Assembly (NCBI RefSeq): GCF_014042165.1
Contig: NZ_JACDZE010000001.1
Span: forward strand, 310,001 to 374,000
Direction of reading: 5' to 3'
From: Moheibacter lacus
GTDB lineage: Bacteria > Bacteroidota > Bacteroidia > Flavobacteriales > Weeksellaceae
Length of the DNA stretch: 64,000 nucleotides
The position numbers were made by a program, and so were the translations under genes. The notes beneath the pieces are model-generated. The model did not search any database. It saw nothing but the letters and a program-made list of their open reading frames with translations, and was not told the DNA's origin. Below, piece by piece: positions 24,685 through 29,633 of the stretch; within the stretch, counting starts at the first letter, position 1; each line of letters opens with the position of its first letter.

Positions 24685-26007
24685 TTATCTCAATTTGATA
24701 ATCAACAAATCATCCAAACCTTTATTCGTGGAAATATCCCCATCACTACTGGCCGAATTCCCGACAGCGACAATGGTATTGTCCGGTTTTTGAATGGCAT
24801 CAAAAGCGAAATCCAATTGAGTTCCACCAACTGATTTCTGCCATAACAATTCCCCATTTGAATCAGTTTTTAATATCCAGGCATCATTTGAACCTTGATT
24901 TTGTCCTACGTCTCCATCTCCACTTTTTGAACTTCCTGAAACCAAATAGCCGTTGTCAGAGGTTCTCATCACGGAACGACCTACATCAAATCCGGTTCCG
25001 CCGTAGGTTTTACTCCAAAGAATTTCTCCATCCTGATTCATTTTGATCATCCATAAATCTGCAGATCCCTTGTTTTCCGGCACATCTTGATCGTTGCTTC
25101 TTGTATCACCTATGATGATGAAATTCCCATCACCGGAGTCTGTAATTGCTCGTGCTTCATCGATCCCAGATCCTCCGAAGTTTTTGTTCCAAACCAATTC
25201 TCCATTTTGGTCAATTTTAATCACCCAAACATCATAAGTTCCTTTGTTGTCAAACAACTCTACTTCATAACTATCTGAAGAACCGACGATAATATAACCA
25301 TCATCTTCTGTTTGGATCGCTCCATAGGCTGTATCTGTGAAATATCCGCCATAATGACGACTCCATTCCTTATTTCCTTGTGCGTCCAATTTGATCATCC
25401 AATAATTTCCACCAGGATGTTTATTGAAAGTATTTCCCTCTCCACCAGATGCAAATGCGTCCAGCACGCCGGTCAATAAATAACCACCGTCATGCGTCGG
25501 AGTCAGAACCGTTCCTGCATCACCACCCACATATCCAAATGATTTCTCCCAAAGCAAATTTCCTTCAGCATCCAATTTGGCAATCCAATAATCTGACATC
25601 CCTGCATTTTCACTTACATCTCCATCGCTGCTCTGACTGTACCCCAAAATGGCATAACCTCCATCTGTCGATTGAACCAAATCAAAACCATGATCATTCT
25701 GGCTTCCACCATAGGTTTTAGTCCATTGGACACTGTCTTGATTGTCAAATTTAATCAGCCAAAAATCATAACTATCGTCATTTTTATCGGTAATATTACC
25801 GTCCATGCTTTGGGTTGATCCCAAAATGGCATAACCACCATCAAGGGTATTGATAATCGCTCTTGCATCATCGTTTTTTGAACCACCTAGAGTTTGGGTG
25901 AATTCGATTTCGTTGGCAAATTCTTCATCAGAAGAAGATGAAACGTCGTCATTTGAACAACTCCAGACCAAAATTCCTGACATCAATATTTTAAATACTA
26001 ATTTCAT
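24685..26007 (-). CDS. Lipoprotein with seven beta-propeller-like repeats
   Basis: About 440 aa from ATG 26007. Lipobox LVWSC lipidates Cys17. Seven tandem repeats of about 55-60 residues follow the pattern GG...D.A..I..T.DGGY.I.G...S.DGD...N.G..D.W.IK.D..G...W.K. Each ends in a Trp before the next GG. Seven copies fit a closed seven-bladed propeller. Surface-exposed or periplasmic; function unknown. It is the last gene of the MbnP/MbnH locus but has its own promoter region with palindromic sites. Confidence 0.8.
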   Translation of the reverse strand: MKLVFKILMSGILVWSCSNDDVSSSSDEEFANEIEFTQTLGGSKNDDARAIINTLDGGYAILGSTQSMDGNITDKNDDSYDFWLIKFDNQDSVQWTKTYGGSQNDHGFDLVQSTDGGYAILGYSQSSDGDVSENAGMSDYWIAKLDAEGNLLWEKSFGYVGGDAGTVLTPTHDGGYLLTGVLDAFASGGEGNTFNKHPGGNYWMIKLDAQGNKEWSRHYGGYFTDTAYGAIQTEDDGYIIVGSSDSYEVELFDNKGTYDVWVIKIDQNGELVWNKNFGGSGIDEARAITDSGDGNFIIIGDTRSNDQDVPENKGSADLWMIKMNQDGEILWSKTYGGTGFDVGRSVMRTSDNGYLVSGSSKSGDGDVGQNQGSNDAWILKTDSNGELLWQKSVGGTQLDFAFDAIQKPDNTIVAVGNSASSDGDISTNKGLDDLLIIKLR

Positions 26008-26040
26008 GTGTATATTTTTAATTTTTTTAATTGACACATG

Positions 26041-26048
26041 CAACCTTA
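26041..26048 (-). promoter_or_regulatory. Possible -7 element of the propeller lipoprotein gene
   Basis: TAAGGTTG differs from TAnnTTTG at one position. It lies immediately downstream (minus-strand sense) of two palindromic operator-like sites. Confidence 0.35.
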
Positions 26049-26049
26049 G

Positions 26050-26098
26050 ATGATTAAAATAATCATTACGCTGTGTGTTTAAAGATTATTTTAATCAT
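26050..26098. promoter_or_regulatory. Paired palindromic operator-like sites
   Basis: ATGATTA-AAA-TAATCAT (26050-26066) is a 17-nt palindrome. A second site GATTA-TTT-TAATC (26084-26096) is the same core inverted, giving a perfect 15-bp inverted repeat across a 19-nt spacer. Centre-to-centre distance is about 32 bp, close to three DNA turns, as expected for two dimers on one DNA face. Sits just upstream of the presumed promoter. Confidence 0.6.
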
Positions 26099-26127
26099 GT
26101 CGGTTTCATTTTTCTGTTTTTCAACAA

Positions 26128-27582
26128 TTATCGGACGACCAATTTTTTGGTAGCTCCTTCATTGATTTTTACGATATAAACTCCTTTTGAAAAATTAGTT
26201 ACAGGCAATGTAAATTCTTTTTGATTGATCCGGGTTTGAGTAAAAATCTCTTGCCCCAAAATGCTGTAAACCTTCACACTTTCTATCTGAGCATTTTTTC
26301 CTGCAACCAATTTGGCAAATGATGTTGCCGGATTTGGATAAATAGAAAAAGTGCCCATATTCATATCGTTCACGCCCATGGTTCCGTCACTTGGACGTAC
26401 CAAAAAGAAACCTCTTGAAATATCACTGATGACGACGTTTCCACTTTCAAAATAAGGATAAACACTCCACGCACCGTCAAAATCGGCCACGTTGCTTTGC
26501 GGATAGGTATCAAAATACCCTATTTCTTCCATCGCATTATTTGAACTCGCTACATTAGAAACATCCACTACACGTAGTCCTGCTGTATAATTGGCCAAAT
26601 AAAATTTATCTTCCAAAACATATCCATTATGATCGATGGCTTCAGTTGGGCCATAATATTCATTGTGAACTTGTGGATTATCCAAATCCTGAACATCAAA
26701 AATGATGGTTCTGGTATTGATCCCAAAGCTCTGCTCATCCAATTCATCGCCCAATAATAAATAATTTGAATCCTCTGTAAGCCAAGCTTGGTGCGTATAT
26801 CCGGGACTATCGTAATCAATATCAGAAATTAAAACCGGATTGTTTTTATTGGTTACATCCACAAATACCACTTTGTTATTACTCCCAAAACTTCCATTGC
26901 TACCTATATAAATCTCACGACCGGTATAATCTGCGTCAGGACCATCATAAGTAACAACTTGCGCATCATGGGTATAGCCGCTATCTGCATAACCACCAGC
27001 TCCTTGAGGATTGAGAGGATCTGAAATATCAACAAATACTGCTCCACCTGAAAAATCATCACAACCTACCAAATAAGCATAAGGCTCAGATGGATTGATC
27101 ACGATATTATGGCAACTTCCAATTCCTCCATAGCGTGCATCGGCATCAAAAACAACCGGCGGATTTGCGACATTTCTCAACCTCGTTAAATCAAAAACCT
27201 GCATTCCATGATTACCGGCAGCATCTGCTACGATAAAAGCATAATTTCCATAGACTTTAATATCTCTCCAAACACTGGAAAAAGTTTCCGTTTCTACTCT
27301 TCCTAAAAAAATAGGATTGATAGGATCGGAAATATCTATAAAAGCTGTACCATTGGTAAGCCCAACAATGGCATATTCCTTTCCAGAATCAGGATCTGTC
27401 CATCCCCAACTGTCATTTCCACTTTCCTGATTGCTTCCTGCCAAAACATTTAAGGAAAGTTGAGATAGCAAATCATATCCATTACAAGGATAATTCCCAG
27501 CCATTCCGTTTTCACAGGGAGTTTGTCCCATAAGGTTGATGGCATTTGCGCCAATGGCAAAAAGTAAAAGTAATTTTTTCAT
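26128..27582 (-). CDS. Choice-of-anchor-B family protein with T9SS sorting domain
   Basis: 484 aa. Signal peptide ends NLMGQ. LVIVD-like repeats run through the body (AFIDISDPINPIFLGRVET, VFVDISDPLNPQGAGG, VFVDVTNKNNPVLIS, RVVDVSNV), matching the choice-of-anchor-B family. The last about 80 residues are a type A T9SS C-terminal domain (FSIYPNPATSFAKL...VKVYSILGQEIF...FSKGVYIVKI...KKLVVR). It is thus secreted through the PorU/PorV system, part of which is encoded at the end of this window. Ligand unknown; neighbours suggest copper. Confidence 0.88.
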   Translation of the reverse strand: MKKLLLLFAIGANAINLMGQTPCENGMAGNYPCNGYDLLSQLSLNVLAGSNQESGNDSWGWTDPDSGKEYAIVGLTNGTAFIDISDPINPIFLGRVETETFSSVWRDIKVYGNYAFIVADAAGNHGMQVFDLTRLRNVANPPVVFDADARYGGIGSCHNIVINPSEPYAYLVGCDDFSGGAVFVDISDPLNPQGAGGYADSGYTHDAQVVTYDGPDADYTGREIYIGSNGSFGSNNKVVFVDVTNKNNPVLISDIDYDSPGYTHQAWLTEDSNYLLLGDELDEQSFGINTRTIIFDVQDLDNPQVHNEYYGPTEAIDHNGYVLEDKFYLANYTAGLRVVDVSNVASSNNAMEEIGYFDTYPQSNVADFDGAWSVYPYFESGNVVISDISRGFFLVRPSDGTMGVNDMNMGTFSIYPNPATSFAKLVAGKNAQIESVKVYSILGQEIFTQTRINQKEFTLPVTNFSKGVYIVKINEGATKKLVVR

Positions 27583-27657
27583 TTTCTATGTGTTAATTAA
27601 ATTTTTAAGGGTGAAAGTTAATGAACTTCAATTCATTATACAATTTAAATTCATAAG

Positions 27658-28716
27658 TTAAAATTCTGAAAATGCTGGATTGCTTATAAAGTCTTGGTCC
27701 GTTAAAGTGTTTAAAAATTGAATCAAATCTTGTTTTTCTCCATCTGAAATAGGAATTCCAACTTGATCTCCATTTCGCAAAAGTGGATCTAGCCTAGGAT
27801 TGTCTTCGATTCCTTCTCTATAAAAATCCAAAACAGCTTCCAGCGAATAAAATCTACCATCATGCATATAAGGTGAAGTAATGGCTATATTTCTCAGGCT
27901 TGGCACCCTAAATTTCATGGAGTCTTCCGGATTTAACGTCACCCTAAATAATCCTGCATCTGCCAATTGTTCATTAAAATACAAACCGGTATTTCGAAAA
28001 GATTCATCGGTTTGAAGCGCTCCGGCATGACAAGCACTGCATTTCTGTTCAAAAAGAATCCTTCCATTTTCTTCTGAATCGGATAAACTGATTTCTCCTT
28101 TTTTATATTGATCAAATTTGGATTGATCCGAAATCATGGTTGCCATAAATTGACCCAAAGCCATCAAAATCCGGTCGGCATTAATTTCTGAATCACCATA
28201 CGCTTCACTAAACATATTTGGATAATTTTCATCTTCTGAAAGTTTCTGAATGATGTCCGGAAAATTGGAATCCATTTCTTCGAAAGCGCTAATCGGACTT
28301 ATGGGTTGATCATTCAGTTCGTGAATCACACCATCCCACATGAAGCGGTTTAAAAAGGCAAGATTTTGTAACGGTGGCGCATTTCTCAAACCCAACCGAT
28401 CATCTATCCCATGACTGATACTATGTCCATGATGCGTAAAAGCAAATTCCTGAATGTGACAAAAACCACACGAAATGGCATTGTTTCTGGACAATTTTCC
28501 TTCATAAAATAACTTCTTGCCGAGTGAAATTTTATTTCGGGTCAAAGGCGTTGATGCATAGGTAAATTCCGGGAAATAATTGGGAAATGAAAGTGTAACT
28601 ATTTCATCTACCGGCGATCCTTCCTCCACTTCATCTTGACAAGAATTGATCAGAAAAAAACTAAAAATACAAATCCAAAAAACAATTTTTAAATGATTTA
28701 CGGAGTTGGGGTTCAT
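27658..28716 (-). CDS. Di-haem MauG/MbnH-like enzyme, lipoprotein
   Basis: 352 aa. Lipobox LINSC (Cys26). Two c-type haem sites: CGFCH (83-87) and CSACH (226-230), in the di-haem cytochrome c peroxidase/MauG fold (LGKKLFYEGKLSRNNAISCGFCHIQEFAF...). The gene starts 5 bp after an MbnP-type gene. In characterised pairs MbnH oxidises a Trp of MbnP to kynurenine to make a copper site, so MbnH is the best specific call; an ordinary haem peroxidase is the alternative. Confidence 0.85.
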   Translation of the reverse strand: MNPNSVNHLKIVFWICIFSFFLINSCQDEVEEGSPVDEIVTLSFPNYFPEFTYASTPLTRNKISLGKKLFYEGKLSRNNAISCGFCHIQEFAFTHHGHSISHGIDDRLGLRNAPPLQNLAFLNRFMWDGVIHELNDQPISPISAFEEMDSNFPDIIQKLSEDENYPNMFSEAYGDSEINADRILMALGQFMATMISDQSKFDQYKKGEISLSDSEENGRILFEQKCSACHAGALQTDESFRNTGLYFNEQLADAGLFRVTLNPEDSMKFRVPSLRNIAITSPYMHDGRFYSLEAVLDFYREGIEDNPRLDPLLRNGDQVGIPISDGEKQDLIQFLNTLTDQDFISNPAFSEF

Positions 28717-28721
28717 TAATT

Positions 28722-29558
28722 TTAATTATTATGAATATGCGAAATGCTGAACATCTTGCTTAAATTATTGGTCACATTTACCAAATGTTCAGATGATCCC
28801 ATCGCTTCATGATTGGTATCATCCAAAATTAAATCTGTCTCTCCACTTAGATAATGATTCAAATCTGCTATGAAATGAATGCCTGGAAAAGTTTGGGGTG
28901 TAACGACCAATTGGTCCGGTAAATCCAATTCTATTTCTCGGTACAAATCTGGAGTTTCCGTTACGACCACATCACCCATATTTCCAGTATGATTGATAAA
29001 ATTAACATCCAGAGCATCTGTTCCGTATTTCCCTTCTAATTTCGCAAAAATATATCCTGCCGCCCAAGACCAGTTCATCCCTTCTGCTCCGGCTTCAGCC
29101 CAAAATTCTCCCTGACTTTCTCCACCTAGCAAATAGGCGTCTTGACTGATTCCCAATCCAAATTTCACCTTATTGTAAACCCCAGCCGGAATCGAATCCA
29201 ATTCTAAACTCACCTCATTATTGAAATTCGCATCGCTTTGGTCCACGATAAAAGCGCCTTTGTCAGGATCGTTTAAATGGAATGTGAAATTAACCCCTTC
29301 AGTATTGGTCAATGTAAAATTGCTCACGATATATTTCAAGGTAGAAAACTGGTGTTTCTGCCCACTGGAAGAAGTCTGTGTTGTATTGTTCAAAATGATC
29401 GGACTCAAACCTTCAAATCGATTGTCAAATTTAATTTGAACAGCTCCCCATTGCTCTTCAGGCGGATTTTGATCTGAATTTTCATCATCAGTTGAACAAT
29501 TCAAAATGAATAATGAAAATAGCACGAACATTGAAGTTCTAAATAAATTGAGTCGCAT
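28722..29558 (-). CDS. MbnP-like copper-binding lipoprotein
   Basis: About 278 aa from ATG 29558; the longer frame adds 33 non-signal-like residues. Lipobox FILNC (Cys21). The MbnP family signature AEAGAEGMNWSWAAGYIFAK spans 154-173, with W163 and W165. This segment contains the Trp that partner MbnH converts to kynurenine in studied MbnPs. Other family blocks: LKYIVSNFTL and AGVYNKVKFGLGI. First gene of a likely mbnP-mbnH operon. Confidence 0.85.
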   Translation of the reverse strand: MRLNLFRTSMFVLFSLFILNCSTDDENSDQNPPEEQWGAVQIKFDNRFEGLSPIILNNTTQTSSSGQKHQFSTLKYIVSNFTLTNTEGVNFTFHLNDPDKGAFIVDQSDANFNNEVSLELDSIPAGVYNKVKFGLGISQDAYLLGGESQGEFWAEAGAEGMNWSWAAGYIFAKLEGKYGTDALDVNFINHTGNMGDVVVTETPDLYREIELDLPDQLVVTPQTFPGIHFIADLNHYLSGETDLILDDTNHEAMGSSEHLVNVTNNLSKMFSISHIHNN

Positions 29559-29613
29559 GTATTGTGTGTTAAAAATAAAATTCAATACAAAAATAAAAAA
29601 TTTTAGTTCATTC

Positions 29614-29633
29614 AATTCTAATTTACTAGAATT
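29614..29633. promoter_or_regulatory. Inverted repeat in the divergent mbnP/ridA region
   Basis: AATTCTA-ATTTAC-TAGAATT, a perfect 7-bp inverted repeat with a 6-nt spacer, about 56 nt upstream of the MbnP start. Candidate operator; no regulator gene is adjacent. Confidence 0.4.

Follow-up and report, generated by a model that had tools for sequence, protein, structure and literature searches.

A conserved four-gene unit joining an MbnP-MbnH pair to predicted surface propeller-like proteins in Moheibacter lacus and Flavobacteriaceae

We analyzed a 64,000-nucleotide stretch of the Moheibacter lacus genome (positions 310,001 to 374,000 of contig NZ_JACDZE010000001.1, hereafter the window), in which four consecutive minus-strand genes encode, in the order of transcription, MbnP, the di-haem enzyme MbnH, a choice-of-anchor-B propeller (CAB) and a repeat, propeller-like lipoprotein (SBBP; Table 1). 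This unit, which combines the MbnP-MbnH pair (MbnPH) with CAB and SBBP, is real and conserved, and a functional link of CAB-SBBP with MbnPH is well supported and, in our view, very probable. That it consists of a surface copper-site pair acting together with CAB-SBBP, the copper mechanism being plausible in the window, is given a probability of about 0.5. A previous reading of the window made from its letters alone (the sequence-only reading) had reported four genes on a single strand, which the open reading frames confirm; the repeat lipoprotein that it counted within the locus does exist, but lies just beyond the interval it had delimited (26007-24685).

Identification of MbnP and MbnH

The lipoprotein of the window is a true MbnP by fold and by sequence. 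It carries the AEAGAEGMNWSW stretch and matches PF20243 (118.4 bits, cut-off 27), in keeping with the MbnP signature that had been noticed before. Its structure model (predicted local distance difference test score, pLDDT, 81) was matched by Foldseek to the Methylosinus trichosporium MbnP 7L6G (E 3.8e-7), with a Z score of 15.8 versus 5.8 for the next entry. In a profile of 24 MbnPs, the GMxWxW motif and a later His align with GMAWNW and VHVGS of 7L6G; the corresponding residues W163, W165 and H190 are all present in the window protein, and H190 is invariant across all the MbnPs compared. A phmmer search with this MbnP alone gave no match in the PDB, whereas the fold and profile searches did. 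Since the TIGR04052 equivalog model gave 32.9 bits and its cut-off of 140 was not reached, the protein is assigned here to the wider PF20243 family and not to that equivalog. The same cut-off was missed by a relative from family f1 (40 bits) and by a Flavobacteriaceae operon MbnP (no match), and these Bacteroidota MbnPs appear to lie outside the coverage of the model.

The enzyme encoded 5 bp downstream has the CCP/MauG fold (PF03150, 167 bits) and two CxxCH c-type haem motifs. TIGR04039 is its best NCBIfam model, with 229 bits versus 172 for TTQ_mauG, although the cut-off of 363 was missed; this cut-off was passed in only 3 of the 247 genomes of our phylum sample. The closest solved structure is 6E1C, a "Di-heme enzyme" (162 bits, E 1.9e-46) which we take to be the MbnH of M. 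trichosporium, followed by the best cytochrome c peroxidase (CCP, 125 bits) and MauG (72 bits). In the alignment, Y299 falls on the Tyr within the 6E1C stretch VIDIYSEG. This Tyr is kept in nearly all the MbnHs and presumably corresponds to the MauG-type Tyr ligand, which replaces the Met ligand of CCP. Judging from these comparisons, the enzyme resembles MbnH more closely than it does bacterial CCP or MauG, and the description of a di-haem MbnH-like enzyme at 5 bp from MbnP given by the sequence-only reading therefore stands in its spacing, its haem motifs and its top model.

Genome mining performed in 2013 showed that the MbnP-MbnH pair is conserved far beyond the methanobactin producers (PMC3621798). 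The pair in the window shares with this metallo-mystery pair (TIGR04052/TIGR04039, GenProp0940; 7L6G, 6E1C) the adjacency of the two genes, the MbnP fold, the GMxWxW motif with its His and the MauG-like enzyme, but differs from it in having CAB and SBBP beside it, in scoring under both NCBIfam cut-offs and in lacking methanobactin genes. As regards the latter, which had likewise been reported as not visible, no match to the MbnB family (PF05114) was found across the whole genome.

Conservation of the four-gene unit

Neighbourhoods were surveyed in a phylum sample (247 genomes, 67 with MbnP and 93 with a CAB match) and an order sample (346 genomes), and 80 loci were annotated with profiles built in this analysis. 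The high-scoring CABs of the order sample (>500 bits) occur almost all in one family, f2, which is taken here to be Flavobacteriaceae since an f2 locus (L045) and an Ulvibacter record (L176) have identical SBBPs. In nearly all the high-scoring CAB loci, CAB and SBBP are adjacent, usually flanked by a thiL-like gene and by suf iron-sulphur genes. Among the annotated loci, the arrangement CAB-SBBP-MbnP-MbnH was found at eight and CAB-SBBP alone at six. In 8 of the 9 Flavobacteriaceae genomes of the order sample with both a high-scoring CAB and MbnP, the two are adjacent. A scan of named genomes gave all four genes in 66 of 79 CAB loci, mostly from Flavobacteriaceae (Tenacibaculum, Winogradskyella, Aequorivita, Olleya, Lacinutrix, Mesonia, Aquimarina, Polaribacter, Psychroflexus and others); since these loci were ranked by their likeness to the window CAB, this fraction is no prevalence, and the order sample provides the independent figure. 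The genes form a tight operon, with one to six CAB genes followed by SBBP, MbnP and MbnH at median gaps of 8, 7 and 4 bp. The sequence-only reading had tied the neighbours to MbnPH mostly by position, a reservation that this survey largely removes. Neighbours varying freely across loci had been named beforehand as the outcome that would count against a link, and the opposite was found: the four genes are closely packed into one operon in many Flavobacteriaceae, and three MbnPH lineages are involved. The literature searched, which consisted mostly of papers available without subscription and so carries little weight, contained no paper that mentions MbnP together with Bacteroidetes, or LVIVD together with Flavobacteri-.

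Some variations on this organization were also observed. In most cases, the operon is immediately followed by the suf genes for iron-sulphur assembly (L036, L038, L040, L044-L048 and many of L112-L190). In Kordia zhangzhouensis (L190, 14838-18698), a 925-amino-acid gene and smaller genes lie between MbnP and MbnH, and some MbnPs are followed by two tandem MbnH-like genes (L089, L090, L099 and L108).

Repeated assembly and exclusive partner genes

Three distinct MbnPH lineages occur beside CAB-SBBP. In trees with Shimodaira-Hasegawa-like approximate likelihood ratio test (SH-aLRT) support, the window MbnP groups with those of its own family (95), as does MbnH (99), apart from the main CAB-linked clade (99). 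The window CAB groups with the CABs of the Flavobacteriaceae operons (99), and SBBP falls within an operon-rich set of 27 rows (100). The third lineage, from operons of Aquimarina, Kordia, Mesonia and Psychroflexus, is nested among MbnPHs without CAB (98).

Many other Flavobacteriales MbnPHs have a different pair of neighbours: upstream, a small protein with a CxGKC motif (c2), which matches nothing in Pfam or NCBIfam, and downstream, a protein of outer-membrane type (c3) that contains a DCDACGCAAGNG stretch and matches Phenol_MetA_deg in Pfam only. In one example, c2 and c3 are located at L055:10515-10886 and L055:7499-8446, respectively; DCDACGCAAGNGSSGFESLL is a feature of the c3 family. 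Copper-themed genes were also found near other MbnPHs, namely SCO1, YHS and a TonB receptor that weakly matches a copper receptor, and these count in favour of the copper mechanism considered below. Within 3 kb of MbnP, CAB occurs in nine cases, none of them with c2 or c3, c2 or c3 in 40 and neither set in 19; among the named genomes, c2 and c3 are absent beside all 68 CAB-linked MbnPs. The window genome contains no match to either gene, whereas its relatives at loci L053, L054 and L067 carry c2-MbnP-MbnH-c3 close to the equivalent of the lptD site occupied in the window. Since the MbnPH of the window is native, its CAB and SBBP resemble those of Flavobacteriaceae and the site is that of lptD, the phylogenetic picture is most simply read as CAB-SBBP having joined a resident MbnPH in this lineage. 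The four-gene team has thus been assembled more than once, and its members are very probably partners and not neighbours by accident.

This evidence bears on the idea that CAB and SBBP are ordinary surface proteins sharing a genomic hot spot with MbnPH without any joint function, which is consistent with CAB-SBBP also occurring alone at the same thiL-suf site but is very improbable in view of the three lineages, one of which (that of the window) has another site and another gene order, the gaps of only a few bases and the exclusion of c2 and c3 beside CAB.

CAB and SBBP

The window CAB is a clear member of the choice-of-anchor-B family of LVIVD propellers (TIGR04312, 538 bits, cut-off 100), coupled in this case to MbnPH. 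It ends in a type A sorting tail of the type IX secretion system (T9SS; TIGR04183, 48.7 bits, cut-off 23; PF18962, Por_Secre_tail, 50.5 bits). SBBP, which shows a weak match to NF047494 (LipL53-like, 56 bits) and has a homologue directly 3' of CAB in 89 neighbouring pairs, is a lipoprotein. The T9SS-exported propellers previously proposed for the locus thus come down to one of the two propeller-like proteins: CAB is sorted by this system and SBBP is not. Tandem arrays of up to six CAB copies were observed upstream of SBBP, the length and the anchor (T9SS tail or lipobox) varying among the copies (L178, L126, L130, L139 and L157).

In the structure model of CAB (pLDDT 90), H158, H205, H264 and H318, which are invariant in 182 aligned CABs, each open one inner strand of four consecutive blades, the model being a confident one and the blades having been assigned from the strand order. 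This arrangement suggests a candidate metal site, as a lead and not as a proof. The top Foldseek match is the propeller of the Sphingobium sp. TCM1 phosphotriesterase (5HRM/5IOJ; E 2.3e-12 and 15% identity for 5HRM), which has LVIVD-like repeats and is the nearest solved fold; the Z score was 30.1 over 337 residues, but many metal-free WD40 propellers also reach Z values near 30. A weak motif alignment (E 0.018) sets H158 on a His of 5HRM. We assume that this enzyme has a binuclear metal centre and that the aligned His is one of its metal ligands. The identity is 15-18%, and no catalytic function is assigned to CAB. In the literature searched, the term choice-of-anchor-B was absent and no activity was reported for the family.

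MbnP, MbnH and SBBP are mostly predicted to be lipoproteins in which acidic residues follow the lipobox Cys, and the CABs of the family are anchored by a T9SS tail or, in some cases, a lipobox, according to simple pattern tests. These lipoboxes with acidic residues resemble the surface export signal described for Bacteroidota lipoproteins (PMC5080379). All four proteins are therefore probably located on the outer surface.

The Trp site and the possible roles of MbnH

In MbnPs studied elsewhere, the WxW motif is the reported site of the conversion of Trp into kynurenine. It is kept as WW in 55 of 59 MbnPs without CAB; at the positions of W163 and W165, the 75 CAB-linked MbnPs have WW (30), WV (25) or FV (20). 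A His at position 170 (H170) is present in 66 of these 75, including all 45 with Trp loss, and the nine without it are all WW, as is the window MbnP, which also lacks H170. The MbnHs of the CAB operons keep both haem motifs and the conserved residues. Kynurenine formation is therefore likely in the window MbnP, as far as can be inferred from its residues, whereas kynurenine at this place would be impossible in the FV forms. Since the motif is damaged or gone in most CAB-linked operons and MbnH is kept, the kynurenine-copper reading cannot be extended to the whole operon family, in which MbnH may be used for something else.

In the mechanism that we favour, the surface MbnPH copper-site pair would work with a CAB-SBBP propeller module. 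MbnH would oxidize W163 or W165 of MbnP to kynurenine, which together with H190 would form a Cu(I) site on this outer-membrane lipoprotein, by analogy with the MbnPHs studied and with CorA; CAB, as a probable metal-binding propeller, and SBBP would share the surface and might act with MbnP in metal binding or hand-over. The copper acquisition or sensing suggested by the sequence-only reading is a hypothetical role. In CorA, Cu(I) is surrounded by Kyn62, His64 and His114 (PMC3912023). CorA/CorB of M. album and MopE/SACCP of M. capsulatus likewise involve a surface copper protein, the conversion of Trp into kynurenine and a di-haem peroxidase-like partner (PMC3912023). CorA has Kyn-x-His where the MbnP type has W-x-W and, unlike the window pair, these systems are not described with propeller partners in the accessible text of that report.

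Several points weigh against this mechanism. In six Flavobacteriaceae genomes (G134, G503, G418, G234, G130 and G468), CAB-SBBP is not accompanied by MbnP, so that it is able to work without it. The WxW motif is damaged in more than half of the CAB-linked MbnPs and both of its Trp are lost in the FV forms. Apart from generic propellers, the closest fold to the CAB model is the phosphotriesterase, which points to a metal, not copper. The sequence of the locus gives no sign of copper regulation. The trees were quick ones. Finally, the gene order in the window is reversed relative to the Flavobacteriaceae operons, with gaps of 75 bp between MbnH and CAB and 120 bp between CAB and SBBP, which makes a single transcript uncertain.

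It is possible, although clearly less probable than the mechanism set out above, that the four genes work as one unit whose job is not a kynurenine-copper site, MbnH oxidizing a different substrate (a propeller protein or some other Trp of MbnP) or serving as a surface peroxidase, with MbnP mostly a His-ligand metal protein and the window an old-style member. The loss of Trp with MbnH unimpaired, always in the presence of H170, argues for this; the intact WxW and the lack of H170 in the window, and the 30 CAB-linked MbnPs with both Trp, argue against it. No alternative substrate residue of MbnH was evident either: neither CAB nor SBBP has a Trp or Tyr that is conserved only alongside MbnPH, the conserved Trp being identical with and without the pair. 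In an improbable alternative, CAB would be a hydrolase of the cell surface whose binuclear metal centre resembles that of the Sphingobium phosphotriesterase, its metal being supplied or protected by MbnPH, and would take part in extracellular organophosphorus or ester turnover; the top structural match, the placing of H158 and the four invariant His favour it, but metal-free propellers match CAB equally well, the sequence match is weak, the ligand role of the aligned His is our assumption and the literature searched gives the family no activity.

Organization of the locus

The MbnPH pair of the window adjoins lptD and an amidase gene. Since MbnP, CAB and a match to the MbnH model each occur once in this genome (2.77 Mb, 99.8% complete), the adjacency of MbnP, MbnH and CAB exceeds chance expectation. 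No RNA family was found at the locus. The promoter-like pattern upstream of MbnP, the consensus of which is the one we take as usual, matches the window 13 times versus 13.8 expected and is thus without statistical weight. A palindromic repeat of about 75-80 bp was observed between CAB and SBBP (26033-26112) and at about nine sites in the genome; its ends (ATGCAACC..GGTTTCAT) and core arms are conserved and its fold is strong (z -5.2), as in miniature inverted-repeat transposable elements or repetitive extragenic palindromic sequences.

Table 1. Features of the MbnPH-CAB-SBBP locus (window positions).
Feature	Position	Strand	Basis or remarks
Promoter-like TTG-N17-TANNTTTG upstream of MbnP	29588..29615	-	Position only
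MbnP lipoprotein, 278 amino acids	28722..29558	-	Lipobox Cys21, W163-S-W165, H190; PF20243
MbnP W163-S164-W165 codons (WxW motif)	29064..29072	-	Reported site of the Trp-to-Kyn conversion in other MbnPs
MbnH, di-haem MauG-like enzyme, 352 amino acids	27658..28716	-	6E1C nearest; predicted lipoprotein, Cys26; CxxCH 83-87 and 226-230; Y299
CAB, choice-of-anchor-B (LVIVD) seven-bladed propeller, 484 amino acids	26128..27582	-	TIGR04312; model; Foldseek
CAB region with H158, H205, H264 and H318 (candidate metal site)	26629..27111	-	Alignment and model strands
CAB T9SS type A sorting tail, residues 414-483	26131..26343	-	TIGR04183, PF18962
SBBP repeat lipoprotein, 440 amino acids, lipobox Cys17	24685..26007	-	Weak NF047494 (LipL53-like); start chosen in this analysis

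Implications

Outside the methanotrophs, MbnPH gains from these data a conserved partner module of surface propellers and a pattern of exclusion between two sets of partners, and the choice-of-anchor-B family gains a functional lead. Along the natural series WW, WV and FV, the enzyme stays while the residue supposed to be its substrate vanishes, so that what MbnH acts on, and to what end, can be tested directly in culturable Flavobacteriaceae. We tentatively suggest, as a rather doubtful extension, that MbnPH might be a modular surface maturation pair with swappable partner sets (c2/c3 or CAB-SBBP), and that marine Flavobacteriaceae might have replaced the Trp site of MbnP stepwise by a His site in their CAB-SBBP operons, MbnH being kept. 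If this is true, the MbnH retained after the loss of the Trp site would have gained another substrate, possibly in a complex with the propellers, that is, in a metal-binding surface assembly of an undescribed kind.

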